A stretch of 64,000 nt of DNA from a virus: positions 1 to 64,000 of IMG/VR virus record IMGVR_UViG_3300027741_000030; one strand, given 5' to 3'. The position numbers were made by a program, and so were the translations under genes. The notes beneath the pieces were generated by a model. It was not told where the DNA came from, did no database searches, and saw only the letters and a list, made by a program, of their open reading frames with translations. Below, one piece after another: positions 4,302 through 33,081 of the stretch; the first letter of the stretch is position 1, and each line of letters begins with the position of its first letter.

Positions 4302-5414
4302 ATGAATAAAAAATTAATAGCTGCGTTAATCGCAATCACACTAGCAGTACCTACAACCGCTCAAGCAGCGGGACTGAAGAATCGTACAGATTCTACACCA
4401 ACTATTGCAATTCTTGATACAGGAATTGATACATCTCTTCCAGCGTTTAAGGGAAAAATTGTTCAAGAGGTTTGTATTCTAGAATGGACAACATGCCCTA
4501 ACGGTAAATCATTTATGGAGGGCACTGGTGCGGCCTCTATGCCATCAAATTTAATTTCTCAAAACGGATTTGATCATGGAACTCTTATGACATCTGTATT
4601 TTTGCAAACAAATCCAAATGCTAATATTGTTTTTATTAAAATTATTGGAAACACAGCAACTGGTTTGCGACAAAATGCTGGAGAAGCATCAGTATACAAC
4701 GCACTTAATTGGGTAAAATCAAACGCATTGAAATATAATATTCAAGCGGTTAGTATGTCACAAGGACATCACACTTTGGGAGCAGCAGGAACAGATTACT
4801 GTCCAAAAACTCCAATTACTGAGCAGGCAGTCAAAGACTTGATGTCTATGCAAATACCAGTATTTTTTCCATCTGGAAATGGTCGTGACTACACCCGCAT
4901 TGATTGGCCCGCATGTTTAGACGTATCTGTTTCTGTTGGATATGTAGATCAACAAAATGAAATTTCTGCTTCAAGTAATAACGATTCTTCAAAGCTAGAT
5001 TTTTTTGCGCCAGGCTTCTTTTCAGTTGCTGGCCCAGGAAATGTTTTAAAGAATATTTCAGGTTCATCTGCAGCAATTCAAGTGGCAGCAGGACAGTGGT
5101 TAAAGCTAAAAACAGCAAAGCCAACATACTCCTATGATCAAATTTTTACTGCAATTAAGTCTACAGCATCAAGTACAGTTGGAAGACAGGGAACATTTAA
5201 TAATCTAATTAATATCAATGCTGCTTTGTCTTACGCACCACAACAGGCTGGGCCAAGTCAGCAAGAGCTTGCTGCACAAGCAAAAGCAAAAATAAAAGCA
5301 GAAGTTGATGCAGCAATTGCAGCAGCAGAAGCTCAATATCAGATTGAATTAAAAGCTGCACAAGATAAGCTTGCTGCAACTAAAGCACAATGGCTGGCAA
5401 AACTTAATGGCTGA
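4302..5414 (+). CDS. Secreted subtilisin-like serine protease
   Basis: A 370-residue S8 family protease. The N-terminus is a signal peptide with likely cleavage after AQA (residue 22). Catalytic residues are visible: Asp39 in ILDTGID, His92 in FDHGT, the oxyanion Asn193 in SGNG and Ser256 in GSSAA. Residues 315-370 form an Ala/Lys/Glu-rich coiled coil, possibly for wall attachment or multimerisation. Prodomains are usual in secreted subtilases, but none is obvious here. A secreted protease carried by a phage could process host surface or virion proteins (inference). It is followed by small cytoplasmic genes with an 8-bp overlap. Confidence 0.9.
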   Translation: MNKKLIAALIAITLAVPTTAQAAGLKNRTDSTPTIAILDTGIDTSLPAFKGKIVQEVCILEWTTCPNGKSFMEGTGAASMPSNLISQNGFDHGTLMTSVFLQTNPNANIVFIKIIGNTATGLRQNAGEASVYNALNWVKSNALKYNIQAVSMSQGHHTLGAAGTDYCPKTPITEQAVKDLMSMQIPVFFPSGNGRDYTRIDWPACLDVSVSVGYVDQQNEISASSNNDSSKLDFFAPGFFSVAGPGNVLKNISGSSAAIQVAAGQWLKLKTAKPTYSYDQIFTAIKSTASSTVGRQGTFNNLININAALSYAPQQAGPSQQELAAQAKAKIKAEVDAAIAAAEAQYQIELKAAQDKLAATKAQWLAKLNG

Positions 5415-5614: not shown

Positions 5615-5917
5615 TTGATAGTTACAGATGAAAGTTTTGATAGGGTTTTAGATGCACACAATTTAATACTCATTGACTTTTGGGCGCCATGGTGCGGACC
5701 GTGCAAAAAAATATCTCCAATCTTAGATGAGATATCAAATGAGCGTGGTTTATGGGTCGGAAAATTAAATGTTGATGAAAATCCAATCAAATCAGACGAA
5801 TACTCTGTAATTTCTATACCAACTATGATACTATTCAAGTCTGGCGACCCAGTAAAAACAATTGTTGGGGCTAAGCCTAAGCATGTTATATTAGAAGAGC
5901 TATCAGAATGGATCTAG
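5615..5917 (+). CDS. Thioredoxin
   Basis: A 100-residue protein starting at TTG 5615, supported by AAGGGAGAG just upstream. It has the canonical active site WCGPC (C27 and C30) and the cis-proline loop SIPT (P69), so it should be a functional disulfide reductase. A phage thioredoxin could supply electrons to ribonucleotide reductase (class II enzyme at 38215), the glutathione peroxidase (13289) or sulfur metabolism; which is unknown. Confidence 0.93.
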   Translation: MIVTDESFDRVLDAHNLILIDFWAPWCGPCKKISPILDEISNERGLWVGKLNVDENPIKSDEYSVISIPTMILFKSGDPVKTIVGAKPKHVILEELSEWI

Positions 5918-7243: not shown

Positions 7244-8047
7244 ATGAAATTTCACTGCATGACAAGAGGTAATGAGCAATCAGTTCAATACTTGTCAGAC
7301 CTTTCAGAAAAGCTTGAAAAGGTTGGATACGAGTCAGTGCTATTGGTATATCATTCAAAGGTTCCTGACTTTTTAACAAAAGCAGTAAGAGTTATGTCTT
7401 CTGAGCAAAAATTAAAATATATGATTGCAATTAGAACTTATGCAATAAGCCCAGAATATATGGCGATGATATGTCAATCAATAAATGAGATGGCACCAAA
7501 TAAAATCATTTTAAATGTAGTTTCTGGAGATATTCATCAAGGTGAAACGAGCATAGAAGACCTAATATTAATAGGCGATCTTCTTCCAACAACTAAATCT
7601 AGAATTGATTACACAGATATGTGGCTTAATAAATTTTTAAATATGGAAATATTGAGGTCTAAGCCACCGATAGTTATGGGTGGGCATTCAGATTTAACAA
7701 GAAATATAGCAATTAAACATAACGCTACTCATTTATCTATGATAAATATGCATGAAGATCATTTAAAAAGCAGTAACCCAATTTATAATAAAAAACAAAT
7801 GATTTGTTTTGGATTAGTAATAAGGGATACACAAGAAGAAGCTGACCTTTTTGGAGAAGAATTCTTTAGCGAATCAGAAAAACGTTTATTTATTTGTGGC
7901 ACAAAAGAGCATTTGATAGACAAGATTAATTATTTAAAATCTATAGGCATTAGCGACTTGCTAGTGCATGATCATATGGACGATCCACAAGCAGGTCGTG
8001 TACATGATATAATTAAAGAGCTTATAAAGGAGCAAAATGGAATCTAA
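7244..8047 (+). CDS. Luciferase-like (SsuD-type) flavin monooxygenase
   Basis: A 267-residue TIM-barrel protein of the LLM class. The section around residues 65-100 (IAIRTYAISPEYM, then KIILNVVSGD) matches the alkanesulfonate monooxygenase pattern, where a FMVAxRPG strand is followed by INVVTG. GTKEHLIDKI near residue 225 corresponds to the family's late GTPEEV motif. It is shorter than typical SsuD (about 380 residues). Such enzymes use reduced FMN or F420 to oxidise small molecules such as sulfonates. An AAAGGA site precedes the ATG. Its stop overlaps a DUF2061 gene. A weaker paralogue lies at 9305. Confidence 0.8.
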   Translation: MKFHCMTRGNEQSVQYLSDLSEKLEKVGYESVLLVYHSKVPDFLTKAVRVMSSEQKLKYMIAIRTYAISPEYMAMICQSINEMAPNKIILNVVSGDIHQGETSIEDLILIGDLLPTTKSRIDYTDMWLNKFLNMEILRSKPPIVMGGHSDLTRNIAIKHNATHLSMINMHEDHLKSSNPIYNKKQMICFGLVIRDTQEEADLFGEEFFSESEKRLFICGTKEHLIDKINYLKSIGISDLLVHDHMDDPQAGRVHDIIKELIKEQNGI

Positions 8048-8255
8048 TAAAAGAAGTTTGTATAAGTCAGTCACCTGGCCAGCAGTCCATATATTATTTG
8101 TTGGAACTTTAGTATATTTTTTTGAACTTGCCATTACTGGAGAAGCACATTGGGAGTATGCTGGAACATTTGCTATTATTTACAGCGCATGCGAAATGCT
8201 TGGGTATTTCTTACATGAAAGAGCCTGGTCAAAGTTTGGCGGTAAGATTAAGTAA
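8037..8255 (+). CDS. DUF2061 small membrane protein
   Basis: A 72-residue protein with the DUF2061 layout: an RSLYKSVTWPAVH start, two hydrophobic helices and the closing signature GYFLHERAWSK (YxxHERxW). DUF2061 genes often sit beside sulfate-assimilation genes such as cysC in bacteria, though their role is unproven. A second copy lies next to the APS kinase-like gene. It overlaps the monooxygenase gene by 11 bp. Confidence 0.82.
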   Translation: MESNKRSLYKSVTWPAVHILFVGTLVYFFELAITGEAHWEYAGTFAIIYSACEMLGYFLHERAWSKFGGKIK

Positions 8256-8392
8256 TGGCAAAAAGAAAATCAACAGCATTTAATGATACTCAAATTAAAG
8301 ATGGAAGAATTGTTAGATTAAGAAAAGATGGGTCGATTAAAGCCGATCTGGGCCCATACAGGCAAGGTATTGTTAAAAAAAATATTAAATAA
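8255..8392 (+). CDS. Basic 45-residue protein, unknown
   Basis: Start-stop coupled to its neighbours (TAATG on both sides). It is Lys/Arg-rich with a short beta-hairpin-like RKDGSIKADLG, possibly nucleic-acid binding. No family recognised. Confidence 0.55.
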   Translation: MAKRKSTAFNDTQIKDGRIVRLRKDGSIKADLGPYRQGIVKKNIK

Positions 8393-8514
8393 TGTCTACT
8401 AATAAATGTGAATATTTAACAGATTGCCCTAATAAGGCAACAAGAATAGCCCTTGAAGCAGGCAAAACCACAAGGATCTGCGACGAGTGCTGGCATCAAA
8501 ACTTTAGATCCTAA
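8392..8514 (+). CDS. 40-residue zinc-finger peptide
   Basis: Start ATG 8392 overlaps the previous stop. Four cysteines arranged CEYLTDC ... CDEC suggest a single zinc site. Similar micro-ribbons recur at 15628, 18026, 28574 and 33086. Confidence 0.6.
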   Translation: MSTNKCEYLTDCPNKATRIALEAGKTTRICDECWHQNFRS

Positions 8515-8523
8515 TCAACTGAA

Positions 8524-8532
8524 TGCTATAAT
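8524..8532 (+). promoter_or_regulatory. Extended -10 promoter
   Basis: TGCTATAAT is an extended -10. The mini-ORF ATG at 8539 starts 6 nt later and the SD-led gene at 8590 follows. The near-identical string AATGCTATAATATA recurs at 15784, upstream of the oxygenase gene at 15825. Confidence 0.65.
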
Positions 8533-8538
8533 ATAGGT

Positions 8539-8568
8539 ATGAGCGGATTACTAGTCCCGCTTAAATAG
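8539..8568 (+). CDS. Leaderless 9-residue leader peptide (possible)
   Basis: Starting exactly where transcription should begin, ATG AGC GGA TTA CTA GTC CCG CTT AAA TAG encodes MSGLLVPLK. The main gene at 8590 has its own SD (TAGGAG), so this could be a translated leader that primes or attenuates it. A similar arrangement occurs at 48994. It may also be chance. Confidence 0.35.
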   Translation: MSGLLVPLK

Positions 8569-8589
8569 ACAACCTATAGGAGTAATAAA

Positions 8590-8787
8590 ATGACAGACGG
8601 TATCAACTTAACAGGTTTTAACGAAGTTAAACCAGCAGGAACAAATGGAATTAATGCACACTACTCAGACAATACAGGTTCAGCATTTGCTGCATCAGAC
8701 ATGTCGTCACAAGGTAATGCAGGATTAAATAGAGAAGGATCTTCAAGTTCATTGCCAATTTCAGGCGCAGATGAATCAGATATGTAA
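8590..8787 (+). CDS. Ser/Gly-rich hydrophilic protein, unknown
   Basis: A 65-residue, apparently disordered protein rich in Ser, Gly, Asn and Ala, without Cys. Its strong own promoter and SD suggest it is well expressed. It might be a minor virion or scaffold peptide. No family recognised. Confidence 0.6.
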   Translation: MTDGINLTGFNEVKPAGTNGINAHYSDNTGSAFAASDMSSQGNAGLNREGSSSSLPISGADESDM

Positions 8788-8789
8788 TC

Positions 8790-8945
8790 ATGGATCTATT
8801 TAATAAAGAAGAAGTTGTAGCACCAACACAAGAAGCAGCAATTGCACAGGCAATTAAGCCAGTAGCACCTGCATCTAATAAATGCACAAGAGACACAAGA
8901 GGCGAAAATCCTTGTGCAGTTAAAGATTGTGAGAACTGCAACTAA
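8790..8945 (+). CDS. 51-residue Cys-containing peptide
   Basis: The N-terminus is Ala/Glu/Pro-rich and the C-terminus holds four Cys (CTRDTRGENPC, CENC), a plausible metal site. The stop overlaps the next ATG (TAATG). Confidence 0.55.
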   Translation: MDLFNKEEVVAPTQEAAIAQAIKPVAPASNKCTRDTRGENPCAVKDCENCN

Positions 8946-9103
8946 TGTGTATGGATTGCGGATGCGGTATTAATTCAGTTGGCATGGGGTCAGGAATGAC
9001 ACCAGTTACAATTGAAGATGTTTCAAGAGATGGTGAATCTGGTACAACATTAGGAATGGTATCAACACCAGAAGAGACAAGACAGTTTATAAATGAGCAA
9101 TAA
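8945..9103 (+). CDS. 52-residue peptide with N-terminal CxxCxC
   Basis: It begins MCMDCGCGINS, a Cys-Gly cluster like that in the 29-residue peptide at 11073, and continues with a hydrophilic tail. It overlaps the next gene by 11 bp. Unknown function. Confidence 0.55.
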   Translation: MCMDCGCGINSVGMGSGMTPVTIEDVSRDGESGTTLGMVSTPEETRQFINEQ

Positions 9104-9299
9104 TATTAAAAAAGAAGATGGCACTGGCATGGTGCCACCAGCTAACGCTGGTGCACCTGCTGGTGCTGTTACAAGCACACAAACACCAAAAAGATACCCA
9201 AGACAAGGTGTAAAAATAGATACAAACAAACATGGTATTAGGAGAGAGACAAGCTTAATCCCTAAGCCTGTTAAAAAAACGGGTAGAAAAAAAATATAA
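9093..9299 (+). CDS. Basic Pro/Ala-rich protein, unknown
   Basis: A 68-residue, probably disordered protein with Gly/Ala/Pro-rich first half and a strongly basic C-terminus (KKTGRKKI), suggesting nucleic-acid or envelope contact. No domain recognised. Confidence 0.55.
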   Translation: MSNNIKKEDGTGMVPPANAGAPAGAVTSTQTPKRYPRQGVKIDTNKHGIRRETSLIPKPVKKTGRKKI

Positions 9300-9304
9300 T
9301 TTAA

Positions 9305-10069
9305 ATGAAGTTCCATTGGTTACAAAGGTATAGCAAGTCTCCATACGAATTAAAAAATACTTTAATTAAAATAAATGAAATTGGATATGAATCTATACTT
9401 GTAACATTTAATACTGGAATGCTTGATCCTTTTACAAAATGTGCAAATGCTTTTATTCCAAATCAAAAAATTAAATTTATGGTTGCAATAAGACCATATG
9501 CTTTAACTCCAGCATACCTTTTGATGATATTAAAAACATTTGAAAAAATATCTAAGGACTGTATCGTATTGAATATAGTTCCTGGAACCGCAGATAAAGA
9601 ACAGTTTATTTTTGAAGAAGGTACATCATTGCATGAAAGAAAAGTATACGCTGGTAAATTTGTGGAAAAAATGAAAATTATAAATGATAAGCACAAATTT
9701 TTAAGTAATGACATGCCTAAAATATTTTTTAGCGGTGGTTCTGATGAAAATATAAGCAATGCAGTTAAATATGGTGATGGTCTTATTTATTTATTAAAAG
9801 ATCATTTGACAACTCCAGAAAGATTCAATACACTAAAAGGCACTCATATGCTAAATGTATTTATAATAATATGTGAAACTGAAAGTCAAGCAAAAGATAT
9901 ATATAGTAAATTAGATGGTCCACAAGTTGGAAGTTCAATTTATGGAACAAAAGAGCAGGTTAAAGAAAAGCTTCTTAAATTAAAAGATTTTGAGGTTTTG
10001 ATTTCATCATCAAAAATTTATGATTGCGATAACGATATTCATGACTTAGTAAAGGAAATCAATAAATGA
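9305..10069 (+). CDS. Second luciferase-like (SsuD-type) monooxygenase homologue
   Basis: A 254-residue paralogue of the 7244 gene. Aligned features are a KFHWLQRY start, then VAIRPYALTPAYL and CIVLNIVPGTAD around residues 59-97, and GTKEQVKEKL near residue 217. It is more diverged and lacks some loops, so activity is uncertain; it might pair with the first copy as in bacterial luciferase heterodimers. It overlaps the APS kinase-like gene by 4 bp, which ties the two functions together. Confidence 0.72.
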   Translation: MKFHWLQRYSKSPYELKNTLIKINEIGYESILVTFNTGMLDPFTKCANAFIPNQKIKFMVAIRPYALTPAYLLMILKTFEKISKDCIVLNIVPGTADKEQFIFEEGTSLHERKVYAGKFVEKMKIINDKHKFLSNDMPKIFFSGGSDENISNAVKYGDGLIYLLKDHLTTPERFNTLKGTHMLNVFIIICETESQAKDIYSKLDGPQVGSSIYGTKEQVKEKLLKLKDFEVLISSSKIYDCDNDIHDLVKEINK

Positions 10070-10827
10070 TTATTCAAATAATTGGACTTCCAGGTTCAGG
10101 CAAAACAGAACTTGCAAAAGCGCTTAAAGAAAGAATTAATGCTATTCATCTTAATGCAGATGAAGTTAGAGCAACAGTCAATTCTGATTTAGGTTTTACC
10201 CCTGAAGATAGAATTGAACAGGCTCGCCGTATGGGTGAGATGGCAAGACTAATTTCCAAACAAGGAATTGCTCCAGTGATTGTAGATTTTGTTTGCCCAA
10301 TAGAGCTAACTCGTGCAGCATTTGGTAAACCAGACATTTTGGTATTCATGGATACAATTGCAGAAGGTCGTTTTGAAGATACTAATAAGATGTTTGAGCG
10401 CCCAACAGATTTTGATGTATCATTTATCAGCCACAATTTAAATGCAGAACAAAAAGCATCTCATATTATTGAAAAGTTTGGAATACACGACTGGTCTGCA
10501 CCCACAACACTTATGCTTGGTAGATATCAGCCATGGCATGAGGGCCACCATGCTCTTTACAAAGAGGCTGGTAAAAGAACAAATCAAGTACTTCTTGGAG
10601 TTCGTAATACATACAATACAAGCGAAAAGGATCCACTTAAATTTGATCAGGTAAAAGAATATATTGCTAAAGATGAATTTATGGATGGAGCACTGGTATT
10701 GAGACTTCCTAACATTACTAACATAGTATATGGTCGTGATGTAGGATACAAAATTGAGCAAGTAGATTTGGGGGCAGATATTCATGCTATTAGCGCTACG
10801 CAAAAACGTAAAGAGATGGGTCTCTAA
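10066..10827 (+). CDS. Fused APS kinase-like / HxGH nucleotidylyltransferase
   Basis: A 253-residue two-domain protein. Residues 1-140 resemble adenylylsulfate (APS) kinase: Walker A GLPGSGKT (7-14), then HLNADEVR (28-35), DLGFTPEDRIEQARR and VIVDFVCP, all typical CysC features. Residues 147-253 form a nucleotidylyltransferase: GRYQPWHEGHH with the HxGH motif (158-161), and ISATQKR (242-248), the usual ISxTxxR ending of NMN/CTP-type transferases. It could make PAPS for sulfotransferases while the second domain makes an activated nucleotide, but kinase specificity cannot be read with certainty. Confidence 0.82.
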   Translation: MIIQIIGLPGSGKTELAKALKERINAIHLNADEVRATVNSDLGFTPEDRIEQARRMGEMARLISKQGIAPVIVDFVCPIELTRAAFGKPDILVFMDTIAEGRFEDTNKMFERPTDFDVSFISHNLNAEQKASHIIEKFGIHDWSAPTTLMLGRYQPWHEGHHALYKEAGKRTNQVLLGVRNTYNTSEKDPLKFDQVKEYIAKDEFMDGALVLRLPNITNIVYGRDVGYKIEQVDLGADIHAISATQKRKEMGL

Positions 10828-10869
10828 AATAAAAGAAGTTTTGTCATGGCTGGCTTTAGGAGCAGGGCA

Positions 10870-11073
10870 ATGAATGTAACTAAACAAAGATCAGCACTAA
10901 AGGCAATCACTTGGCGCATAATTGGAACTGCAGATACTTTTGTGTTGTCATATTTTATAACACACAAAGCAATCACTGCAGCATCAATTGCGGGTTTTGA
11001 AGTGCTAACAAAAACTATTCTTTATTATTTTCACGAACGTGGCTGGAACAAAGTTCAGTGGGGAAGAAAATAA
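10870..11073 (+). CDS. DUF2061 small membrane protein, second copy
   Basis: A 67-residue protein with the full DUF2061 pattern: RSALKAITWRIIGT, two hydrophobic stretches and ILYYFHERGWNK. ATG 10870 is preferred over 10846 because AGGAG lies 6 nt upstream. Its place directly after the APS kinase-like gene mirrors the cysC neighbourhood of DUF2061 in bacteria. Confidence 0.85.
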   Translation: MNVTKQRSALKAITWRIIGTADTFVLSYFITHKAITAASIAGFEVLTKTILYYFHERGWNKVQWGRK

Positions 11074-11162: not shown

Positions 11163-11380
11163 AAAAAAGAAAGCTATTAAACAATGTTTACTCATTTCTT
11201 CCCAAGATGTATCAAGGATCTGAAATAAAAGAGTTAGACAAGGCTGTTGATTTAATTATACATACAAAAGCCCCAGAAAAGTGGCTCCTTATAGATTTAG
11301 AAACAGGTCAAGAATATGTTGGGTTGTCGGAACCAGATCAATACGGAATGTGGAAAAGAATTAAAGAAAAAGACTCTTAA
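11159..11380 (+). CDS. Hypothetical 73-residue protein
   Basis: A basic N-terminus and a later segment KWLLIDLETGQEYVG suggest a small alpha/beta fold. No family recognised. Its 3' end overlaps the convergent sulfotransferase gene by 4 bp. Confidence 0.55.
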   Translation: MKKRKLLNNVYSFLPKMYQGSEIKELDKAVDLIIHTKAPEKWLLIDLETGQEYVGLSEPDQYGMWKRIKEKDS

Positions 11381-12057
11381 GGTTTCCAAAATAGAGTTTT
11401 TGCTTTTTCATATAGATCTATATCTATAGAGTTATGCTTTTTTATTAAACTTAACTCATCTTCATTTAAAGATTCATATATTTCTTTTACCCCAAAAGAC
11501 TTAAAATCATCGGTATCTAAAATGTTTTTTTCAAGAACCACTTCAGGAACATTAAACTCTAATGATATTTTTTTATTTATTTTATCAATTGTATATATAT
11601 TAACATCTTCAGAGTCTATTAAAAGATTGACCCTGCTTAACCTTTTAAATATTAAATTTTTGTCAAAATTAATATTTACAGAAGGATCAACTTTATTGTC
11701 CTCCCAATTTAAAAAATTTCTAGCAGATAGATTATTTATTAAATTAATGTTAGATAAAAGATCTTCTTTATTTTTTACATTTGAAAAAGCAACATTATAG
11801 CTTATAAATTGCAAAACTGGATCTCTTAATATGCACATTACATATGTTGATTCTTTTATTTCTGAAGCCCAGCCCCAGTGTGTCCATCCCTTTGTATCAG
11901 TTTTTGGACGTATAAATTCTTTGTTGTTTTTGTTTATTTGATCTATTAAAGATTTTAAAAGATACCTATGAAAAAATCTTCCAGCGCATCTATTTACATG
12001 CAAAAAATAAAATGAATCCATAAAATTAATTATATCATTGTAATCAAGTATTGACAA
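11377..12057 (-). CDS. Sulfotransferase-like protein
   Basis: A 226-residue protein (TTG start; an ATG 12 codons later at 12021 is an alternative). FLHVNRCAGRFFHRYL (18-33) occupies the 5'-phosphosulfate loop position of Sulfotransfer_2-type enzymes, and CILRDPVLQFIS (75-86) is the 3'-phosphate motif with Arg78 and Ser86. These enzymes move sulfate from PAPS to sugars or proteins. It is the only minus-strand gene in this stretch and has its own divergent promoter. The usual loop Lys is replaced by Arg. Confidence 0.7.
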   Translation of the reverse strand: MSILDYNDIINFMDSFYFLHVNRCAGRFFHRYLLKSLIDQINKNNKEFIRPKTDTKGWTHWGWASEIKESTYVMCILRDPVLQFISYNVAFSNVKNKEDLLSNINLINNLSARNFLNWEDNKVDPSVNINFDKNLIFKRLSRVNLLIDSEDVNIYTIDKINKKISLEFNVPEVVLEKNILDTDDFKSFGVKEIYESLNEDELSLIKKHNSIDIDLYEKAKTLFWKP

Positions 12058-12085: not shown

Positions 12086-12235
12086 ATGCTTAAAATGTTA
12101 TTTAAAACAATAAAATGTAAAGCTGTTGGACATACGCTTGTAAATGCTGGAAGCTGTCCATTTACGGGTCTTTCTTACAATTATTGTGAAAGATGTGAAT
12201 TAATGTTGCCAAAGGAAGGTCAATATGTCGAATGA
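12086..12235 (+). CDS. 49-residue zinc-finger peptide
   Basis: TATATT (12074-12079) lies 6 nt before the ATG, so the message is probably leaderless. Four Cys (C11, C24, C34, C37, the last two as CERC) indicate a zinc site. It overlaps the oxygenase gene by 11 bp. Confidence 0.6.
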   Translation: MLKMLFKTIKCKAVGHTLVNAGSCPFTGLSYNYCERCELMLPKEGQYVE

Positions 12236-12806
12236 ATTGATTAAAAGAGAAAATGGAATTTGGCAGTGGAATTCTGCATTTAATAATCCATCCGAGCTTA
12301 TTTCTGATATCTTGTTAAAAGATTGGAGACCATACAATAACGACGGTGGTGGAAGCACATTAATAGGTAGATCAACTATTGTGTATGAAAATGAAAAAGC
12401 ATATAATCAAATATTAGATGTATACTCAAAATGTTTGCAAGAATATATTAATCAAAATAATTTAAACATAACAACAGATAACCTAGGAACTGGATGGTGG
12501 CTAGTAAGAGACTACGCTGCTGGATCAGTAATGACGGCTCATGAAGATGCCTACAGCTATGTTAAAGATGGAGAGGATGAAGTCAAACCCATTTTTACTA
12601 TTCTTTTGTACATAAATGACGATTACCAAGGTGGAGAAATACATTTCCCAAATGAAAATGTAACAATAAAACCAGAAGCTGGCTCAGTTGTAATTTTCCC
12701 AAGCAATTTATCTCATGAAGTAAAAACAGTTATTTCAGGAAATAGATACATGACTCAAACCTATATATATGAGAAACCTTTTTCTCATTATCAACAAAAA
12801 TTTTAG
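12225..12806 (+). CDS. 2OG-Fe(II) oxygenase, prolyl 4-hydroxylase-like
   Basis: A 193-residue double-stranded beta-helix protein. The iron triad is visible as His106-x-Asp108 and His164, with Arg174 for 2-oxoglutarate. The family signature NDDYQGGEIHFP (131-142) and PEAGSVVIFPS (150-160) are clear. The P4H family hydroxylates prolyl or other residues using O2 and 2-oxoglutarate. It is the first of fifteen homologues in the window. Confidence 0.92.
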   Translation: MSNELIKRENGIWQWNSAFNNPSELISDILLKDWRPYNNDGGGSTLIGRSTIVYENEKAYNQILDVYSKCLQEYINQNNLNITTDNLGTGWWLVRDYAAGSVMTAHEDAYSYVKDGEDEVKPIFTILLYINDDYQGGEIHFPNENVTIKPEAGSVVIFPSNLSHEVKTVISGNRYMTQTYIYEKPFSHYQQKF

Positions 12807-12814
12807 GACTATAA

Positions 12815-13081
12815 ATGATTTATAATATTGTAGAAAAATATCTAATGCGCCCTAAACGCCTTAGAGAGGCAATTCAGGCAGTTGTAAGAGATAATGATGA
12901 ATTGCTACGTATGATCAAAGAAGCGGAAAATGAAGAGCCAACTAATCTAACATGGTCGGAAGGCGATAAATGGTATGGGTGGACATACAATAGTAACGCC
13001 AAGCGTTATTACTTTGATGATATTGGTAATGAGTCATTGATGGGACTATGGGAAGATCAATGGAAAAGAGAAGAAGCATAG
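12815..13081 (+). CDS. Hypothetical 88-residue protein
   Basis: A helical N-terminal half with charged residues and a Trp/Tyr-rich C-terminal half (WYGWTYNS, WEDQWKREEA). AGGACT precedes the ATG. No family recognised. Confidence 0.6.
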   Translation: MIYNIVEKYLMRPKRLREAIQAVVRDNDELLRMIKEAENEEPTNLTWSEGDKWYGWTYNSNAKRYYFDDIGNESLMGLWEDQWKREEA

Positions 13082-13123
13082 AGAACGGCAGCAGTTAATT
13101 CCTATATAGTATAATAGGGTTAT

Positions 13124-13288
13124 ATGGGTAATCCTAGGTACATGAACGAGTCCTGGTTAAGGGATCAATACGTTGTACAAGAGTTAGAAATTGTCGATAT
13201 AGCTTTAGCTTGCAAAGTAGATAAGTCAGTCATAATAAGATGGCTAGACGAGTACAGAATATACAGAAATTGGAAAAGGTTGGGATAA
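13124..13288 (+). CDS. Small helix-turn-helix protein (probable)
   Basis: A 54-residue basic protein. The run IVDIALACKVDKSVIIRWL (23-41) has the spacing of a helix-turn-helix, suggesting a DNA-binding regulator. TATAAT (13110-13115) lies 8 nt before the ATG. Its stop abuts the glutathione peroxidase ATG. Confidence 0.55.
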   Translation: MGNPRYMNESWLRDQYVVQELEIVDIALACKVDKSVIIRWLDEYRIYRNWKRLG

Positions 13289-13795
13289 ATGTCAATATAT
13301 GATTTAAGTTTTAGAGATTTAGATGGAAGTTTAAAAAATCTTTCAATTTTTAAAAATAAAGTTTTGCTTCTCGTCAACATTGCAACGGAATGTGGATTTG
13401 CTTCTCAGCTAAAAGATTTGCAAGAATTACACGAAAAGTATTTAGATAAAGGACTAGTTGTTATTGCTTTTCCTTCAAACGAATTTGGTGGACAGCAACC
13501 TGGAAGTGATCCAGAAATAGTAGAAACATGTCAAAGTAAATATGGAGTCACATTTAAAATTCTTCCCAAAATAGGAATATCTTTATCAAAAGATTACAAT
13601 CCAGATCCATTATATAAATATTTACAAGAAACTACTCAATTTGAAGTCCCATGGAATTTTACCAAATTTATTGTAGGTCCAGATGAATCTATTGAATTTA
13701 GATTGCCAGATGTTCCAGTTTCAGATTTAATAGAAGTAATAGAAAACAATATTAAAAAAATAAATTTAGAAGAGGATAAAAATAAAAATGTTTGA
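13289..13795 (+). CDS. Glutathione peroxidase-family thiol peroxidase
   Basis: A 168-residue protein with the GPx pattern: VNIATECGFASQ with peroxidatic Cys35, then FPSNEFGGQQPG with the catalytic Gln (69/70), and PWNFTKF with Trp122 and Asn123. Bacterial Cys-type homologues usually use thioredoxin, which this phage also encodes (5615). It may limit peroxide stress during infection. It overlaps the next gene by 8 bp. Confidence 0.9.
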   Translation: MSIYDLSFRDLDGSLKNLSIFKNKVLLLVNIATECGFASQLKDLQELHEKYLDKGLVVIAFPSNEFGGQQPGSDPEIVETCQSKYGVTFKILPKIGISLSKDYNPDPLYKYLQETTQFEVPWNFTKFIVGPDESIEFRLPDVPVSDLIEVIENNIKKINLEEDKNKNV

Positions 13796-14384
13796 TAAAA
13801 TAGAAAAAATAGCAGATCTAGGTGTATATATTGAAGATTGTGCAACAGAAGAAAAGCTTAAAGAATTAATTGAGGATGCAAAATCTTTTGAAAAACAAGA
13901 GCTAAGATTTGGTACAAGATATACTGTTCATAGCTTTAGATCGTCTCATGCAAACTGTTTTAAAGATACTCGTGAAATTATGACAGAAGGCATCACAAAG
14001 TACTTAGAAATGACTGGAAGAAGCATTGATGATTACAAGCCAGCAAACGATTATTATGCATACGTAGCCTGGAATGAAAAATCAGTTGGAACACATAGAC
14101 AAAGCATAGACTATGAAGGTAATCTTCTTGTTTTGCCAGACATATGTGCTTTCTTTTATTTAACTGATGGATATGAAGGGGGAGAAACAACTTTTATTGA
14201 TGCAAACGTATCTGTATCTCCTAAAGCTGGAAGTATGCTTATATATGAAGCAGACTCTTTAATATCAATAAGTAGCGCTACCCCTGCTGGAGTAAAAATA
14301 GAAGTTGGAATGCCAATGTATTTGGCTAGTAAAAATTTAGATGGAGTAGATCCTACTCCCAAAGAGGTCCAGCATCAAATATAA
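13788..14384 (+). CDS. Degenerate 2OG oxygenase-fold protein
   Basis: A 198-residue protein that keeps the fold signature (LTDGYEGGETTF, PKAGSMLIYE) but has His103-Arg-Gln105 where HxD is expected, and no His at the distal iron position (DSLISIS instead). It should not bind iron normally. It may be a scaffolding or regulatory pseudo-enzyme, or have changed chemistry. Its 3' end overlaps the convergent gene by 32 bp. Confidence 0.78.
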   Translation: MFDKIEKIADLGVYIEDCATEEKLKELIEDAKSFEKQELRFGTRYTVHSFRSSHANCFKDTREIMTEGITKYLEMTGRSIDDYKPANDYYAYVAWNEKSVGTHRQSIDYEGNLLVLPDICAFFYLTDGYEGGETTFIDANVSVSPKAGSMLIYEADSLISISSATPAGVKIEVGMPMYLASKNLDGVDPTPKEVQHQI

Positions 14385-14913
14385 CAGAATATTTTTCTGA
14401 CAAATTTTGAGTTCTATGCCATGTTCCTTTTCTAAGCCAGAGTAAATCTCCAGGCTCTAAAGTAATAGTTTGTGGCTCTTTTGTCCAAGCAGTTTGCCAA
14501 TCCCAACCTTTTCTTTCTTGATATTCAAATTGTTTAGGCAATCCATTCATTTCAGCATAAAGTCCTATTTGCCATTCTGTTACGCCTTTGCAGTGCCAAT
14601 GAAGTATGTCGTATGGGTCTTTATGCAAAGGCTCTCCAGGCCAATTAATGTCTAAATTTCTGTATCTTTTACCTTCAAATATATAGTATTGATATTCAAT
14701 TTCTGGGTATGCTTTTTTAGATTCGTTTAAAAAATATTGCATTTCTTCTTTTAGAGGAACATCTTTTATAAATTTACGAACTCCATTGCTTTTAGGATCA
14801 ATTATTTCTTCAAAATCTTCCCAAGATGGGACGGGATGATGCCAATTTTTTAGAACAGCATAATGAAGATTTTCTTTTTTTGCATTTTCTACAAACTCTT
14901 TAATTGTTATCAT
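14353..14913 (-). CDS. Cupin/JmjC-type 2OG-Fe(II) oxygenase
   Basis: A 186-residue protein with His97-Lys-Asp99 and distal His166 in a cupin context (LHKDPYDILHWHCKG; LEPGDLLWLRKGTWHRTQN). This resembles JmjC/ROXA-like hydroxylases rather than P4H. It is a tandem paralogue of the next gene, which ends 1 bp upstream of its start. Confidence 0.8.
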   Translation of the reverse strand: MITIKEFVENAKKENLHYAVLKNWHHPVPSWEDFEEIIDPKSNGVRKFIKDVPLKEEMQYFLNESKKAYPEIEYQYYIFEGKRYRNLDINWPGEPLHKDPYDILHWHCKGVTEWQIGLYAEMNGLPKQFEYQERKGWDWQTAWTKEPQTITLEPGDLLWLRKGTWHRTQNLSEKYSVIFDAGPLWE

Positions 14914-15516
14914 TTAGAGAAGCATATCCTTTCTTAATACAGATTTTTCATTTCCAGATAGCATAACCAATGAGTATTTATCGCATAAATTTTCTGTTGT
15001 GTGCCATGCATATTTTGAAAACCATATAACATCTCCAGGCTCTAACACAAATGTATCTGGCTCTTCAGTAAATTCTGCTTGCCAATTCCACTCACCGTCA
15101 TAGGACGGGCCATCCTCTGGCCTAGTAATTTTTGCTGGATTATTTTTTGATTCAGCGTTTAATCCAATGTTCCATTTTGTAACACCAGTTAGTTGCCAAT
15201 GAATTACATCAAAATTATCTCTGTGTAGCCTTGCTCCAGGGCGCCTTTTAAAATAATTTTTATACTCCATACTTGCAAGAACGTAGAAATGATTATCTGA
15301 TTCAGGGTAAGCTGCAGAAGCTTGATCTAAAAAATAATTTATTTTATCAGGAATAGATTTATCTTTAATGTAAAGTCTTTGTGTTGGATCATCTTCTGGG
15401 CCATACAAAGCTTTCATTTCTTTTCTTGTAGGGGTAGGTTGATGCCAATTCTTAAATACGGCATAGTGTTTTCCTTCAGATTTAGCTTCTTGAATTAGAT
15501 CAGATAAGGTATTCAT
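14914..15516 (-). CDS. Cupin/JmjC-type 2OG-Fe(II) oxygenase, paralogue
   Basis: A 200-residue paralogue of the 14353 gene: shared HYAVFKNWHQP start, iron ligands His98-Arg-Asp100 and His172, and the LEPGDVIWFSKYAWHTTEN strand. A near-leaderless promoter (TATAAT 8 nt before the ATG) drives the pair leftward. Confidence 0.82.
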   Translation of the reverse strand: MNTLSDLIQEAKSEGKHYAVFKNWHQPTPTRKEMKALYGPEDDPTQRLYIKDKSIPDKINYFLDQASAAYPESDNHFYVLASMEYKNYFKRRPGARLHRDNFDVIHWQLTGVTKWNIGLNAESKNNPAKITRPEDGPSYDGEWNWQAEFTEEPDTFVLEPGDVIWFSKYAWHTTENLCDKYSLVMLSGNEKSVLRKDMLL

Positions 15517-15550
15517 ATATCTATATTATACTATATAGTACATATTGCTT

Positions 15551-15590
15551 GCAATTAGTGAACGAAAAAGTGAAAAATTTCGGCGGTAGA
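15551..15590 (+). repeat. Dispersed GCAATTAGTGAA ... CGGCGGTAGA element, copy 1
   Basis: It shares GCAATTAGTGAA and CGGCGGTAGAG with 17499-17526, in both cases just upstream of a leaderless promoter. A related inverted copy occurs at about 34011-34047. Confidence 0.6.
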
Positions 15591-15627
15591 GCTATCTTTT
15601 TTCCACTACGTGGAGTATAATTGAGAT

Positions 15628-15774
15628 ATGACTGTAAATGCATATTGTGTTGTTTGTAAATCAAATGTGGTCGGCAGGCTGACAGAAATGATAGCTTTAG
15701 AATCAGGCAAATGGCTTTACAAAGGTCAATGCCCTAATTGTTTATATGAGATTAAAAGAATAGTCAAGCAGTAA
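15628..15774 (+). CDS. DUF5679-like zinc-ribbon peptide
   Basis: A 48-residue protein with AYCVVCKS (5-12), a middle strand and GQCPNC (33-38), matching the small DUF5679 ribbon found in actinobacteria and phages. TATAAT (15616-15621) is exactly 6 nt before the ATG, indicating leaderless translation. Confidence 0.75.
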   Translation: MTVNAYCVVCKSNVVGRLTEMIALESGKWLYKGQCPNCLYEIKRIVKQ

Positions 15775-15824
15775 TGATATCTAAATGCTATAATATAAGT
15801 ATCGCACAGAAAATGGGAATTTAA

Positions 15825-16334
15825 ATGCAACCAACAGTAATAGATAATTTTATTTCAGAAGAATCGGCTAAAAAAATTGAGCTGTTCTTAAGACCAAAGG
15901 CTGAGATTAATCCAAAAGGTTTATTTAGCAAACAACTTTATCCTTTTGAGATGAGCCATGAAACTTATATTGAAATTAAATCAATTATTGAAAATATTGA
16001 AAAGCAGTTTGGATTTCCAGAAGATCAAATATCAATTAACAGAGTTTTGTATCAAGTATTACGTGAAGGTGAATTTCTTGGCTATCATGCAGATGCATAC
16101 GGCGGAGTAGAAGGTTATGGGCTTATAGGATATTCTGCATTGCTATATTTAAATAATGATTATGATGGGGGAGAAATTCTTTTCTATGATAAAGAGGGTG
16201 GCCCAACTGAGTATAAGCCAAACCCAGGTACATTAATTTATTTTAAAGGTGATGAAAACTATCCTCATTCAGTTAATAAAGTTATAAAAGGAGAAAGGGC
16301 AAATATTATCCTTTTCTTTGATGTAAAGGGATAG
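15825..16334 (+). CDS. 2OG-Fe(II) oxygenase, P4H-like
   Basis: A 169-residue, minimal P4H-type enzyme: His88-Ala-Asp90, distal His148 and Arg158, with LNNDYDGGEILF and PNPGTLIYF strands. It begins near the core fold with little N-terminal extension. An extended -10 TGCTATAAT (15786-15794) lies upstream, giving a leader of about 25 nt. Confidence 0.9.
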   Translation: MQPTVIDNFISEESAKKIELFLRPKAEINPKGLFSKQLYPFEMSHETYIEIKSIIENIEKQFGFPEDQISINRVLYQVLREGEFLGYHADAYGGVEGYGLIGYSALLYLNNDYDGGEILFYDKEGGPTEYKPNPGTLIYFKGDENYPHSVNKVIKGERANIILFFDVKG

Positions 16335-16348
16335 GGTATAATAGGTTT

Positions 16349-16585
16349 ATGGATAATATTGAATTGAACGACGAAGAGATCTCAAAAAATTACATCTCAG
16401 ATGATGAGCATGTAGATAAATGGAATAATATAGAAAAAGCTTGCTGGGCTGGATATAAGCAGGTTGGCATGAAAAATAAGGGCGGAAAAAAAGTTCCTAA
16501 TTGTGTTCCAATTAATAAAGCAACAGGATTACCAGAAGAACCAACAACTTCTTGGAATGGCGTATTTAAACCAAAGGTAAACTAA
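16349..16585 (+). CDS. Small protein with a CWAGYKQVGMK motif
   Basis: A 78-residue protein with an acidic N-terminus and a basic CWAGYKQVGMKNKGGKKVP segment, a pattern common as a short module in phage proteins. TATAAT (16337-16342) lies 6 nt upstream of the ATG (leaderless type). Role unknown. Confidence 0.65.
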   Translation: MDNIELNDEEISKNYISDDEHVDKWNNIEKACWAGYKQVGMKNKGGKKVPNCVPINKATGLPEEPTTSWNGVFKPKVN

Positions 16586-16686
16586 TGACAAAGAAAAAGA
16601 TAAAGCTTCCCCTTAAAATATGGAAGAACCCAATTAGATACATCAAGTTTCATAGAGCATTAAATAAGATCAAGAAAACAATTTAA
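16585..16686 (+). CDS. 33-residue highly basic peptide
   Basis: Rich in Lys/Arg with an amphipathic helix. Start and stop overlap both neighbours (TAATG). It may bind nucleic acid or membranes. Confidence 0.5.
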   Translation: MTKKKIKLPLKIWKNPIRYIKFHRALNKIKKTI

Positions 16687-16853
16687 TGGGCATATTAGAT
16701 AACCTAGAATCGCATTGGGAAAAAGCAGACAAAGTAGAGTCATGCTATTTCTGTCAAAACATGGCTAAGTATAACGATGTAGCTCAAATTGAACAATCAT
16801 ATCAAATAATAGGCGTATGTGAACGTCATTCATTTAAAGGATTATCATCATAA
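16686..16853 (+). CDS. 55-residue zinc-binding peptide
   Basis: CYFC (20-23) and CERH (45-48) suggest a CCCH zinc site. It is start-stop coupled on both sides. Confidence 0.55.
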   Translation: MGILDNLESHWEKADKVESCYFCQNMAKYNDVAQIEQSYQIIGVCERHSFKGLSS

Positions 16854-17467
16854 TGAATATACATACTAAAATAGGCAATAAAGGTTTATATGTAACAGAT
16901 TGCATAGATCAAGAGCATCTAGAGGCATTCTTTGAAATTGATGGCAAACAACATGAAAATGATATGAGAAACTACCTGGGTTACAGATTTGAATCACATA
17001 TAGGAAACAAATTTGAATCACAGATTAATAAAGATTTATTTAAATATCTAACTGAAGCATTTCGTAGTGTAATTTTTGAATACATTAATCAATCTAATAA
17101 AAATGTATCTGATTATCTATTCCCAGATCATTTTAAGACAGCACACTGGAAGCTGGACAAGCCATTAGGCCCTCATAAAGATTCAATTGAGTATGGGGCT
17201 GCATTGGAAAGTATTGGCCCAAGACCAATTATAAGCTCACTTGCTTATCTAACCGATAATTATGAAGGCGGAGAAATATATTTTCCAGATTTTGATATTT
17301 CTTTAAGACCAAGTCCTGGCTCTATAATTGTATTTGACTCTGATACTACTCATGGGGTAAATGGAGTAATAAGCGGTACAAGAAAAACAATGTCTTACAA
17401 CCTACATAGTATAAACTCTCCTCATATAGAAGATCTTAAAAAGGTTGGATATCACACAATATCCTAG
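16853..17467 (+). CDS. 2OG-Fe(II) oxygenase, P4H-like
   Basis: A 204-residue enzyme with His108-Lys-Asp110, distal His167 and Arg177, and the strands LTDNYEGGEIYFP and PSPGSIIVFDS. It is similar in layout to the degenerate 13788 protein but with intact ligands. Its ATG overlaps the previous stop. Confidence 0.92.
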   Translation: MNIHTKIGNKGLYVTDCIDQEHLEAFFEIDGKQHENDMRNYLGYRFESHIGNKFESQINKDLFKYLTEAFRSVIFEYINQSNKNVSDYLFPDHFKTAHWKLDKPLGPHKDSIEYGAALESIGPRPIISSLAYLTDNYEGGEIYFPDFDISLRPSPGSIIVFDSDTTHGVNGVISGTRKTMSYNLHSINSPHIEDLKKVGYHTIS

Positions 17468-29926: not shown

Positions 29927-30460
29927 ATGATAAATTATTTAACTGAAGATAAGCGTGTTTGGGAAATAGAAAATTTTCTTTCTGAAGAAGAGCTATCAAG
30001 ATTTGATTATCATATAAAAAAAACAGAATGGGTAACTCAAGAAAAATGGGAGAATGTTACATATAAAAATAACACTTCAATTTTTCCAGATGTTAAATTT
30101 ATAATAGACAGAACTGCTGATGCAACTGATCATAAATATTCATGGAGCAGCATGGGCATTATAATGAGAATCCAACCTGGTATGTATTTAAGTCCGCATG
30201 TTGATAATTACAATAATCCTGATTCTGATTTAACAAAAAATTGGCTCTCGGCACATATTTATCTAAATGATAATTTTGATGGAGGCGAACTTTATTATGC
30301 AAATTTAAATATTAAATACAAGCCTAAACGTGGTTCCATAGTCTTTCATCCTGGGTTTGAAGATATTTATATGCATGGCGTGAAAAAAGTTGTTGGTTCA
30401 GATAGATACGCAATAGGATTAGTTGGAAAAAGCTTGACATCAAAAATACATTTAGTATAA
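29927..30460 (+). CDS. 2OG-Fe(II) oxygenase, P4H-like
   Basis: A 177-residue enzyme with His91-Val-Asp93, distal His150 and Arg160, and strands LNDNFDGGELYY and PKRGSIVFHPG. A TAAACT (29915-29920) lies 6 nt before the ATG. The gene marks the return to plus-strand coding after the minus block. Confidence 0.9.
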   Translation: MINYLTEDKRVWEIENFLSEEELSRFDYHIKKTEWVTQEKWENVTYKNNTSIFPDVKFIIDRTADATDHKYSWSSMGIIMRIQPGMYLSPHVDNYNNPDSDLTKNWLSAHIYLNDNFDGGELYYANLNIKYKPKRGSIVFHPGFEDIYMHGVKKVVGSDRYAIGLVGKSLTSKIHLV

Positions 30461-31246: not shown

Positions 31247-31918
31247 ATGGGAATGCAAGATATTAAATTTCAAGAAACAACAGGAAAAACAATTAAGGTT
31301 ATAGCTCCTATGGGTTCTGGATGTGTTTTGTTTTCTAAATTCTTAAATCATATTTGTGAAAATGTTAATATAAAATCTGGATACCATGAAACAGATGAGT
31401 GGTTTGGTAGAAATAATCCAACTATGATGGACGAAGAAAATCTTTTTGTTTATATTTTAAGAGATCCAATTGATTCAATAACTGAAAGCGTAAAAGTTTT
31501 AATGAATTTTAAAGATGATTATGCAACTAGATTTCAAGATCCTCATCACCTATTACAATCAATTAATATTGCAAAACCAAAATGGCATGATATGTTTATG
31601 AAATCAAAAGAAAAAGAACAAGAAAATAGTTTTAAAATTATTTACGAATCAATGTTTATAAATTCAGATAAAATGATTAAACAATTTGTAAAATTTTTTG
31701 ATTTAACTTTAAATGAAAATTATTTTTCTTCAATTACTGCAAAAGATGTTTATTCAAAAATGGAAAAAACAGGATACTCATTTTGGATACCAGATAATCA
31801 AATTTCTAAATATACTATAGTTGATGATGCAGTTCGTAATGATGAAGAAATAAAAGAAATGCAAAAACAATATCTTGAGTATAAAAAAGAGATAGAGTTT
31901 TATGATTATAAATTCTAA
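31247..31918 (+). CDS. Sulfotransferase-like protein
   Basis: A 223-residue protein. IAPMGSGCVLFSKFLNH (19-35) resembles the 5'-phosphosulfate P-loop and YILRDPIDSITES (69-81) the 3'-phosphate motif of P-loop sulfotransferases. The remainder is helical, with SFWIPDNQ near the end. It starts 1 bp after the SGNH gene and overlaps the next gene by 17 bp. The acceptor is unknown. Confidence 0.65.
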   Translation: MGMQDIKFQETTGKTIKVIAPMGSGCVLFSKFLNHICENVNIKSGYHETDEWFGRNNPTMMDEENLFVYILRDPIDSITESVKVLMNFKDDYATRFQDPHHLLQSINIAKPKWHDMFMKSKEKEQENSFKIIYESMFINSDKMIKQFVKFFDLTLNENYFSSITAKDVYSKMEKTGYSFWIPDNQISKYTIVDDAVRNDEEIKEMQKQYLEYKKEIEFYDYKF

Positions 31919-32489
31919 TCCTGGATCAGGAAACACTTTTTGCAGCGTATTATTAGAAGAAGCTTTGGGTTATTGGGTTGAAACAAAACATCAGCCACAC
32001 ATATTAAATGAAAAAATAAATCAAATTACTTTATTTAGAAATCCATATGATTCAGTATTGTCTTCTTTAGAAAGACATTTTCAAGATTTGCATCCAGACT
32101 TAAAACCCTTTGATTTAAATAATCAAGACGAAGTAAAAAATAATGTAAAACAATATGTTAGATTGTATAATATATATTTAGACGATTATCAAAAAGACTA
32201 TATCTATCCTGTAACTTATGAGCATTTAAGAAACAACCCAATGATATTTGTAAAATCTATTGCAAATTTTTTTGATTTAAAAATAATTAATGAAGATATT
32301 AATGAAGATAAAATTGTAAAAAAAATAATTAATACTCAAAATTTTTTTGAACATAGAAAAAAAAGATTAGCGCCAGTAAAAGAAAGAGAAGCTTTAATAA
32401 AAATTTTAAAATTAGATAATTCTTTAAAGCAACTTTATGAAAGATATTGTCAACATAAAGAAATTTTGCAAAATGTCCATAACAATTAA
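31902..32489 (+). CDS. Sulfotransferase-like protein, second copy
   Basis: A 195-residue protein. NSNPGSGNTFCSVLL (4-18) and TLFRNPYDSVLSS (43-55) are the two cofactor motifs. VTYEHLRNNP is a further conserved feature of this subfamily. It overlaps both neighbours by about 17 bp, so the three are one translation unit. Confidence 0.68.
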   Translation: MIINSNPGSGNTFCSVLLEEALGYWVETKHQPHILNEKINQITLFRNPYDSVLSSLERHFQDLHPDLKPFDLNNQDEVKNNVKQYVRLYNIYLDDYQKDYIYPVTYEHLRNNPMIFVKSIANFFDLKIINEDINEDKIVKKIINTQNFFEHRKKRLAPVKEREALIKILKLDNSLKQLYERYCQHKEILQNVHNN

Positions 32490-33081
32490 TTCCCCAGAAG
32501 GATCTGGAAATATTTTTGCAAAAACAGCTTTGCTTGATATAGATTGTCCAACAAATGTTATACATAACTATGAGCTTTTGAATTCAGGAGGAAATAATAT
32601 TTTTATATTAAGGAATCCATATGATTGCATATTATCAGCAATTGAGTTACCATTTTTAGGCAATAAATATTTATCAAGACAATTTAATATAGATGATAAT
32701 AAAACAGATCAAGAAATAAATAGACATATTGAACAATATTTAAATTATTTAAAGAATTATAAAAATAAAAAAGTTTATGCAGTAACATTTGAATTTTTAA
32801 CTAACAACCCTAAACAATTTGTAGAAAATGTTACATCAAGGTTTAACAGAAAAATTGATAAAAATAAACTTGATCTTATTTCAGAAGAATCTGTTATAAA
32901 AAAGTTAATAGAAAAAAATCCACATAGAGCTCCATTTAGAGATGACAACCCAAGACAAAAAATATCTATTAGAGAAGAAATAAAAACATTTTTAAATGAA
33001 GACAAAAGAATGAAAGATTTGTACCCTATTTATCTACAACATAAGAATATATTGCAGTCAACTAAAAATATGGTACAATAG
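32473..33081 (+). CDS. Sulfotransferase-like protein, third copy
   Basis: A 202-residue protein. NSPEGSGNIFAKTAL (6-20), ILRNPYDCILSAI (45-57) and VTFEFLTNNP mirror the second copy, indicating tandem duplication. ATG 32473 was chosen because the motif then begins at residue 6, as in its paralogue. Confidence 0.68.
   Translation: MSITINSPEGSGNIFAKTALLDIDCPTNVIHNYELLNSGGNNIFILRNPYDCILSAIELPFLGNKYLSRQFNIDDNKTDQEINRHIEQYLNYLKNYKNKKVYAVTFEFLTNNPKQFVENVTSRFNRKIDKNKLDLISEESVIKKLIEKNPHRAPFRDDNPRQKISIREEIKTFLNEDKRMKDLYPIYLQHKNILQSTKNMVQ

Follow-up and report, generated by a model that had tools for sequence, protein, structure and literature searches.

What does a phage gain from an adenosine 5'-phosphosulfate (APS) kinase fused to a nucleotidyltransferase? 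This question is raised by the IMG/VR virus contig IMGVR_UViG_3300027741_000030 (115,655 bases), of which positions 1-64,000 were analyzed and are referred to here as the window. The record, which also encodes a ribonucleotide reductase, tail proteins and other structural proteins, is read as that of a lake phage. An earlier note, made from the sequence alone, had described a sulfur module of two luciferase-type proteins (LLM1 and LLM2), the fusion protein (KIN) and two DUF2061 proteins (DUF2061a and DUF2061b), which could release sulfite from sulfonates or make 3'-phosphoadenosine 5'-phosphosulfate (PAPS). All five open reading frames (ORFs) are present, at or very near the positions where it had placed them, and their names are supported by Pfam, with a weak match for the nucleotidyltransferase. 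The proposed PAPS synthesis is supported and can be extended by the kept APS-contact residues and the co-occurrence with DUF2061, sulfotransferase and sulfate-assimilation genes. KIN is probably a compact PAPS synthase whose ATP sulfurylase domain is of a new kind and which supplies sulfotransferases in phages.

KIN has a length of 253 residues, of which residues 2-85 match Pfam APS_kinase (E 2e-15). The family phrog_10255 ('kinase') covers the whole protein (E 1.1e-62), and the cut-off of the NCBIfam apsK equivalog is missed (59.9 versus 138.7 bits). An AlphaFold model based on a 36-sequence alignment has a mean predicted local distance difference test score (pLDDT) of 91.4, and its best 50 fold matches in the PDB are all APS kinases or proteins with an APS kinase domain, including 1x6v, 1xjq and 2gks. 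The Walker A motif GLPGSGKT is kept at its key positions across KINs. The APS-binding residues, on which the initial reading had been made to depend, are retained as well: D32, R35, F44, R49 and R55 are invariant in 36 out of 36 diverse KINs, and position 103 is aromatic (Phe or Tyr) in 35 of these. In the alignment to Penicillium APS kinase, they coincide with Asp63, Arg66, Phe75, Arg80 and Arg86, and F103 with Phe165; the position of Asn83 is mostly Gln or His in KINs. By our own alignment, the contact residues are equivalent to the APS contacts of M. tuberculosis CysC, i.e., Asp480, Arg483, Phe492, Arg497 and Phe576 (PMC4373884). As judged from model and alignments, the kinase half is folded like an APS kinase and retains the residues that contact APS, and it most likely phosphorylates APS.

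Two types of ATP sulfurylase are known, Sat and CysDN. Searched against Pfam, KIN has no match to PF01747 (Sat type), to CysD (PF01507) or to the CysN GTPase domain. Its C-terminal half has a sub-threshold CTP_transf_like match at residues 150-187 and carries the motifs GRYQPxHxGH, GR.VGY and ISAT..R, the last two of which resemble GRDHAG and ISGT..R in Sat. Two arginines conserved at family-specific places, Arg180 and Arg224, are candidate sulfate contacts. The members examined retain both the nucleotidyltransferase and the kinase, mostly side by side when split into two genes; in SAR11 both are usually separate neighbouring genes. A distant nucleotidyltransferase (locus L246) pairs with a canonical APS kinase instead. 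Same-family nucleotidyltransferases beside more canonical APS-kinase-like proteins are also seen in L248 and L256, and the pair in L246 is located amid transketolase-like and dehydrogenase-like genes.

The case for ATP sulfurylase activity, which would be a property of this C-terminal half, rests on gene replacement in bacteria. In three small alphaproteobacterial genomes (G306, G175 and G403), the gene order is CbiX-like chelatase, uroporphyrinogen methyltransferase, CysI, CysH, DUF2061, kinase and nucleotidyltransferase. For the G403 operon, NCBIfam identifies an assimilatory sulfite reductase (709 bits; cut-off 457) and a phosphoadenylyl-sulfate reductase (254 bits; cut-off 154), and the remaining genes are supported by Pfam. 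The CysH of the operon is the single PF01507 protein in each of these genomes. In G403 (856 kb, a nearly whole record), tblastn with three Sat queries and motif scans detected no Sat, CysD or CysNC, and the CysN-like matches are by sequence the translation GTPases EF-Tu, LepA, IF2 and EF-G. CysD-type SAR11 genomes (L163 and L164) carry CysD, CysN-CysC and DUF2061 in succession, and one alphaproteobacterial ORF (L165) fuses CysN, CysC and DUF2061. As the same DUF2061 follows CysD-CysNC and stands beside the kinase and nucleotidyltransferase, the latter pair occupies the place of CysDNC. KIN homologues replace the usual sulfate-activating genes (CysDN or Sat) in some bacteria, and this operon replacement suggests an ATP sulfurylase of a previously unrecognized type. 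The fold, residue conservation, gene pairing and replacement were all computed here.

The distribution across SAR11 (n = 147) shows the same exchange. KIN (E < 1e-30) occurs in 110 genomes, CysD in 9 and Sat in 6, and no genome contains both KIN and CysD, an exclusion with a chance probability of 1.8e-6 when kinship is ignored. A second exchange of place concerns Sat, as in SAR11 or related surface islands both Sat (G030, G175) and fused KIN (L098) adjoin a homologous pyruvate-kinase-like gene. The loci with this arrangement are L270, L303 and L098. The earlier note had described DUF2061 as often linked to cysC in bacteria. This holds for SAR11 genomes with CysD (4 out of 9 within ~3 kb) and for the CysN-CysC-DUF2061 fusion, but in most of the 39 DUF2061-bearing alphaproteobacterial genomes there is no cysC in the neighbourhood. 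The linkage was rejected as a general bacterial rule, being rare outside SAR11.

Among phages, the most constant companion of KIN is DUF2061. An IMG/VR scan with KIN found at least 596 relatives, of which the best 80 loci (87-95% identity) were kept. DUF2061 starts at most 300 bases downstream of KIN in 84 and at most 850 bases downstream in 87 out of 88 loci, and is absent in one; these are the loci among L004-L094 with enough sequence, from related freshwater phages, and reflect conservation rather than 88 independent events. One locus of this range (L094), a contig from a Chitinophagaceae metagenome-assembled genome with a KIN at 90% identity, is probably a binned phage contig. Both DUF2061 proteins exceed the gathering score of PF09834 (23.1 bits), DUF2061a with 32.2 and DUF2061b with 74.2 bits, and the latter is 54-57% identical to the DUF2061 of bacterial sulfate-assimilation operons. 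Of the cluster that the earlier note proposed to look for in other phages, KIN and DUF2061 recur together, and the LLMs occur in few KIN-bearing phages. Because the LLMs adjoin KIN only in the subgroup of the window and DUF2061 does so nearly always, KIN and DUF2061 form a conserved unit and the LLMs are variable cargo. In the accessible parts of open-licence papers, DUF2061 is mentioned incidentally, concerning iron or stress regulation.

Sulfotransferases point to the use of the product. Genes of several sulfotransferase families, assigned by homology, lie within 1.5 kb of KIN in 37 out of 81 distant phage loci, which include groups of close relatives, and in 13 out of 91 near ones. In the distant phages L196 and L230, a Sulfotransfer_3 gene is directly beside KIN (E 9e-17 and 1e-10), L197 has a tandem sulfotransferase pair there, the second Stf0-like (E 0.001), and weaker matches occupy this position in L185 and L191. 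Just upstream of KIN, L034 and L036 carry a sulfotransferase where the window has LLM2. In a Rhizobium protein of 555 residues, an N-terminal sulfotransferase-like part (KTAG motif) is even joined to a C-terminal part that corresponds to KIN. A general association of KIN and sulfotransferases across SAR11 genomes was rejected, as both are common and no clear enrichment appeared on inspection. In the window, STR (Table 1) carries FLHVNRCAGRFF and RDPVLQFISY, motifs of the PAPS-binding type (a 5'-phosphosulfate loop and a 3'-phosphate motif). Its homologues in L056 and L038 carry HIPKTGGRF, the one in L023 matches PF03567 (E 0.0026), and STR itself aligns with heparan sulfate 6-O-sulfotransferase in three collinear stretches (E 0.0046). 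STR is a possible PAPS user, as are three further ORFs with Sulfotransfer_3 matches (E 4e-5, 9.7e-7 and 2.1e-4), the curated cut-off being exceeded by the second match alone. A scan by regular expression only found no CysH motif in the 115 kb viral genome or the scanned KIN phage loci, and a phage-encoded route to cysteine via CysH was set aside for this reason. Given the sulfotransferases beside KIN and the lack of a CysH-like motif in these sequences, PAPS for sulfation is the likelier use of phage KIN rather than cysteine synthesis.

From these observations we infer both catalytic activities of KIN, the direction of their use and the role of DUF2061. As a bifunctional sulfate-activating enzyme, KIN would convert ATP and sulfate to APS and pyrophosphate with its C-terminal nucleotidyltransferase, after which the N-terminal kinase would phosphorylate the 3'-OH of APS to yield PAPS. 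DUF2061b, the conserved membrane partner of KIN, might supply sulfate or act as an anchor, which is a guess. In the infected cell, sulfotransferases would draw on this PAPS to sulfate some target; in the window, these are probably STR and the three further ORFs. With less assurance than for the PAPS synthase itself, we lean towards the C-terminal domain (~110 residues) being an ATP sulfurylase of a third type that evolved independently from NadM-like ancestors, which would make KIN the smallest known PAPS synthase, common in SAR11 and freshwater phages and serving sulfation instead of cysteine synthesis. If true, a third ATP sulfurylase type would change the annotation of sulfate activation and explain the PAPS supply in the many SAR11 genomes in which sulfotransferases occur without Sat or CysD, and many viral 'cysC' genes would become sulfation genes instead of cysteine-supply genes. 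A search of open-licence papers for a new sulfate activation enzyme returned nothing useful. Within the same literature, the accessible parts of two papers on viral cysC (PMC10914622, PMC9529941) do not mention a fused nucleotidyltransferase, a replacement of CysDN or Sat, or sulfotransferase or DUF2061 partners, which is weak evidence for novelty.

Several observations weigh against this interpretation. The nearest profiles of the nucleotidyltransferase half are nicotinamide mononucleotide (NMN) adenylyltransferases of the NadM type (E 3e-11) and the profile search finds no ATP sulfurylase. The hhalign comparison with Sat is weak (probability 37%), and QxRN of Sat is absent from this half, leaving only GRD and ISxTxxR common to both. 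In the lid of canonical APS kinases, an Arg stacks on the ATP adenine and a Lys contacts the 2'-OH; the KIN lid is ~17-20 residues shorter in alignments and both residues are missing. STR itself has no Pfam match. G175 also has Sat, located in a surface-polysaccharide island, and therefore the replacement argument rests on G403. The bacterial genomes, including those of SAR11, may be incomplete, and the SAR11 genome counts ignore kinship. Finally, most SAR11 pairs are situated among Rieske, hydratase and YeeE/YedE genes, a context that the proposed function does not explain. The surroundings of the pair in SAR11 genome G017 (L132), annotated by eye, comprise Rieske oxygenase, enoyl-CoA hydratase, YeeE/YedE, MetF-like and GcvT-like genes.

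Other functions of KIN have to be weighed against a PAPS synthase. Were the C-terminal domain unrelated, KIN might be only a viral CysC that turns host APS into PAPS and so stimulates cysteine formation by assimilatory sulfate reduction. Viral cysC genes are usually understood in this way; they are known from lakes and from deep sea and trenches and are assigned to assimilatory sulfate reduction in the accessible parts of the published accounts (PMC10914622, PMC9529941). The thioredoxin gene at 5615 would fit such a role. Nonetheless, we consider it unlikely, as the nucleotidyltransferase stays with the kinase or adjacent to it, is present in G403 where no CysD or Sat was found, and sulfotransferases abound in viral sequence where the regular expression returned no CysH motif. 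In C. jejuni, a nucleotidyltransferase step by Cj1416 and a kinase step by Cj1415 lead to CDP-phosphoramidate 3'-phosphate. An analogous KIN would join CMP or AMP to a phosphate-type acceptor and add a 3'-phosphate, and sulfotransferase-like enzymes would transfer the group from this PAPS-like donor. The Campylobacter enzyme set provides a precedent in which an APS-kinase-like enzyme and a nucleotidyltransferase serve another donor (PMC11800397), and the nucleotidyltransferase of KIN is of the adenylyl/cytidylyltransferase type. However, bacterial KIN operons contain genes for sulfite reductase, PAPS reductase and siroheme synthesis, the KIN kinase keeps the adenine-stacking Phe pair, and neither a glutamine kinase nor an amidotransferase was seen among the neighbours inspected, no systematic search having been made; such a donor seems quite improbable. 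Still harder to credit is a role in NAD synthesis, with a nucleoside kinase and an NMN adenylyltransferase arranged as in NadR with reversed domains, acting against an NAD-depleting defence. Among solved proteins, NadM is most closely related to the C-terminal domain, but the best curated NadM model scores 23 bits (cut-off 127) and NadR 15 bits (cut-off 341), and with scores this far below the cut-offs NadR-like NAD synthesis was set aside. Moreover, the kinase resembles APS kinases and not NRK, and the neighbouring genes are those of sulfur metabolism.

The release of sulfite from sulfonates, the other function initially proposed, would have LLM1 and LLM2 desulfonate organosulfonates and the module recycle the sulfite. 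The stated relationship to alkanesulfonate monooxygenase stands in terms of profile and fold: MsuD, SsuD and SfnG are the nearest matches, and the LLM1 AlphaFold model (pLDDT 90.6) has MsuD as its best Foldseek match, while both Pfam Bac_luciferase matches are just above the curated cut-off. The relationship does not extend to the active site. In SsuD, Arg226, His228 and Arg297 are catalytic; the first two positions are Cys/Gly in LLM1 and Asn/Phe in LLM2, and both proteins lack the insertion with Arg297. With 254-267 residues, the LLMs are closer in length to the F420-dependent PepI than to SsuD, and no flavin reductase was noticed. They adjoin KIN only in the own subgroup of the window and are missing from most KIN phages, and LLM1 relatives at 55% identity or more were found on ten viral contigs in the scan versus at least 596 for KIN. 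SsuD-type cleavage was set aside because of the missing catalytic residues, the LLMs were rejected as a constant part of the module because of their few relatives, and sulfite recycling is accordingly very improbable. A safe reading of both proteins would be that of flavin or F420 enzymes.

The module had been described as packed together with overlaps (Table 1). Two overlaps exist, of 11 bases (LLM1/DUF2061a) and 4 bases (LLM2/KIN), and 19 bases separate the end of KIN from DUF2061b, but ~1 kb (8256-9304) with four small ORFs separates LLM1-DUF2061a from LLM2-KIN-DUF2061b, and the five genes do not form one tight operon. The small ORFs are kept in the nearest relatives, and two of them were searched against Pfam with no match.

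Table 1. Features of the module and sulfotransferase-like ORFs in the window.
Feature	Coordinates	Strand	Evidence
LLM1, luciferase-like protein; SsuD/MsuD-related fold without SsuD catalytic residues	7244..8047	+	PF00296 E 2.9e-7
DUF2061a, diverged second DUF2061 protein	8037..8255	+	PF09834 E 1.4e-7; 30% identity to DUF2061b
Four small ORFs between DUF2061a and LLM2	8590..9299	+	ORF list
LLM2, luciferase-like protein	9305..10069	+	PF00296 E 1.9e-7
KIN, APS-kinase-like domain (residues ~1-140) fused to NadM-like HxGH nucleotidyltransferase domain (~145-253)	10066..10827	+	Pfam/PHROG/NCBIfam, model, fold matches
DUF2061b, small membrane protein, KIN partner	10846..11073	+	PF09834 E 1.1e-20
STR, divergent sulfotransferase-like protein	11377..12057	-	Motifs; homologues; heparan sulfate 6-O-sulfotransferase alignment
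Three tandem overlapping sulfotransferase-like ORFs (31247-31918, 31902-32489, 32437-33081)	31247..33081	+	Sulfotransfer_3 matches

Upstream of the module, a subtilase-family protease (4302-5414) and the thioredoxin (5615-5917) are both kept in the nearest relatives. ORFs for 2-oxoglutarate-Fe(II) oxygenases are numerous in the window (at 12225, 13788 (weak), 15825, 16853 and 29927; spans 12225-17467 and 29927-30460), accompanied by two JmjC/cupin ORFs on the minus strand (14353-15516) and a glutathione peroxidase (13289). Just after the three tandem sulfotransferase-like ORFs follow a tRNA-Ile (33212) and a tryptophan halogenase gene (34078-35574; phrog_2928, E 1e-103).

Among known systems, the bifunctional PAPS synthetases (human PAPSS1/2; Aquifex Sat-APS kinase, 2gks) resemble KIN in combining a sulfate-activating nucleotidyltransferase and an APS kinase half in one chain, and PAPSS also has the kinase first. 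They differ in size (550-630 residues versus 253) and in an ATP sulfurylase half that is Sat instead of a ~110-residue NadM-like domain, and the KIN lid is shortened. Sat-type ATP sulfurylases are defined by PF01747, the QxRNxxH and GRDHAG motifs and a PUA-like domain, a combination that KIN does not display. CysDN(C) with DUF2061 takes the same operon place in CysD-type SAR11 (L163, L164) as the KIN pair and is fused in L165, whereas the KIN system has neither CysD nor a GTPase subunit. With NadM (2qjt, 1f9a), its nearest relative by profile, the C-terminal domain shares the GRxQPxHxGH and IS.T..R motifs, but KIN has a conserved Arg180 where NadM has Gly/Ser, contains the GR.VGY motif and pairs with an APS kinase, not with NAD genes. 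The LLMs have their nearest fold and profile in the alkanesulfonate monooxygenases SsuD/MsuD, yet are 254-267 residues long and lack the catalytic Arg/His and the Arg297 segment. The viral cysC auxiliary metabolic genes, as far as the accessible parts of their descriptions show, are likewise APS-kinase-like genes of freshwater and marine phages (PMC10914622, PMC9529941).

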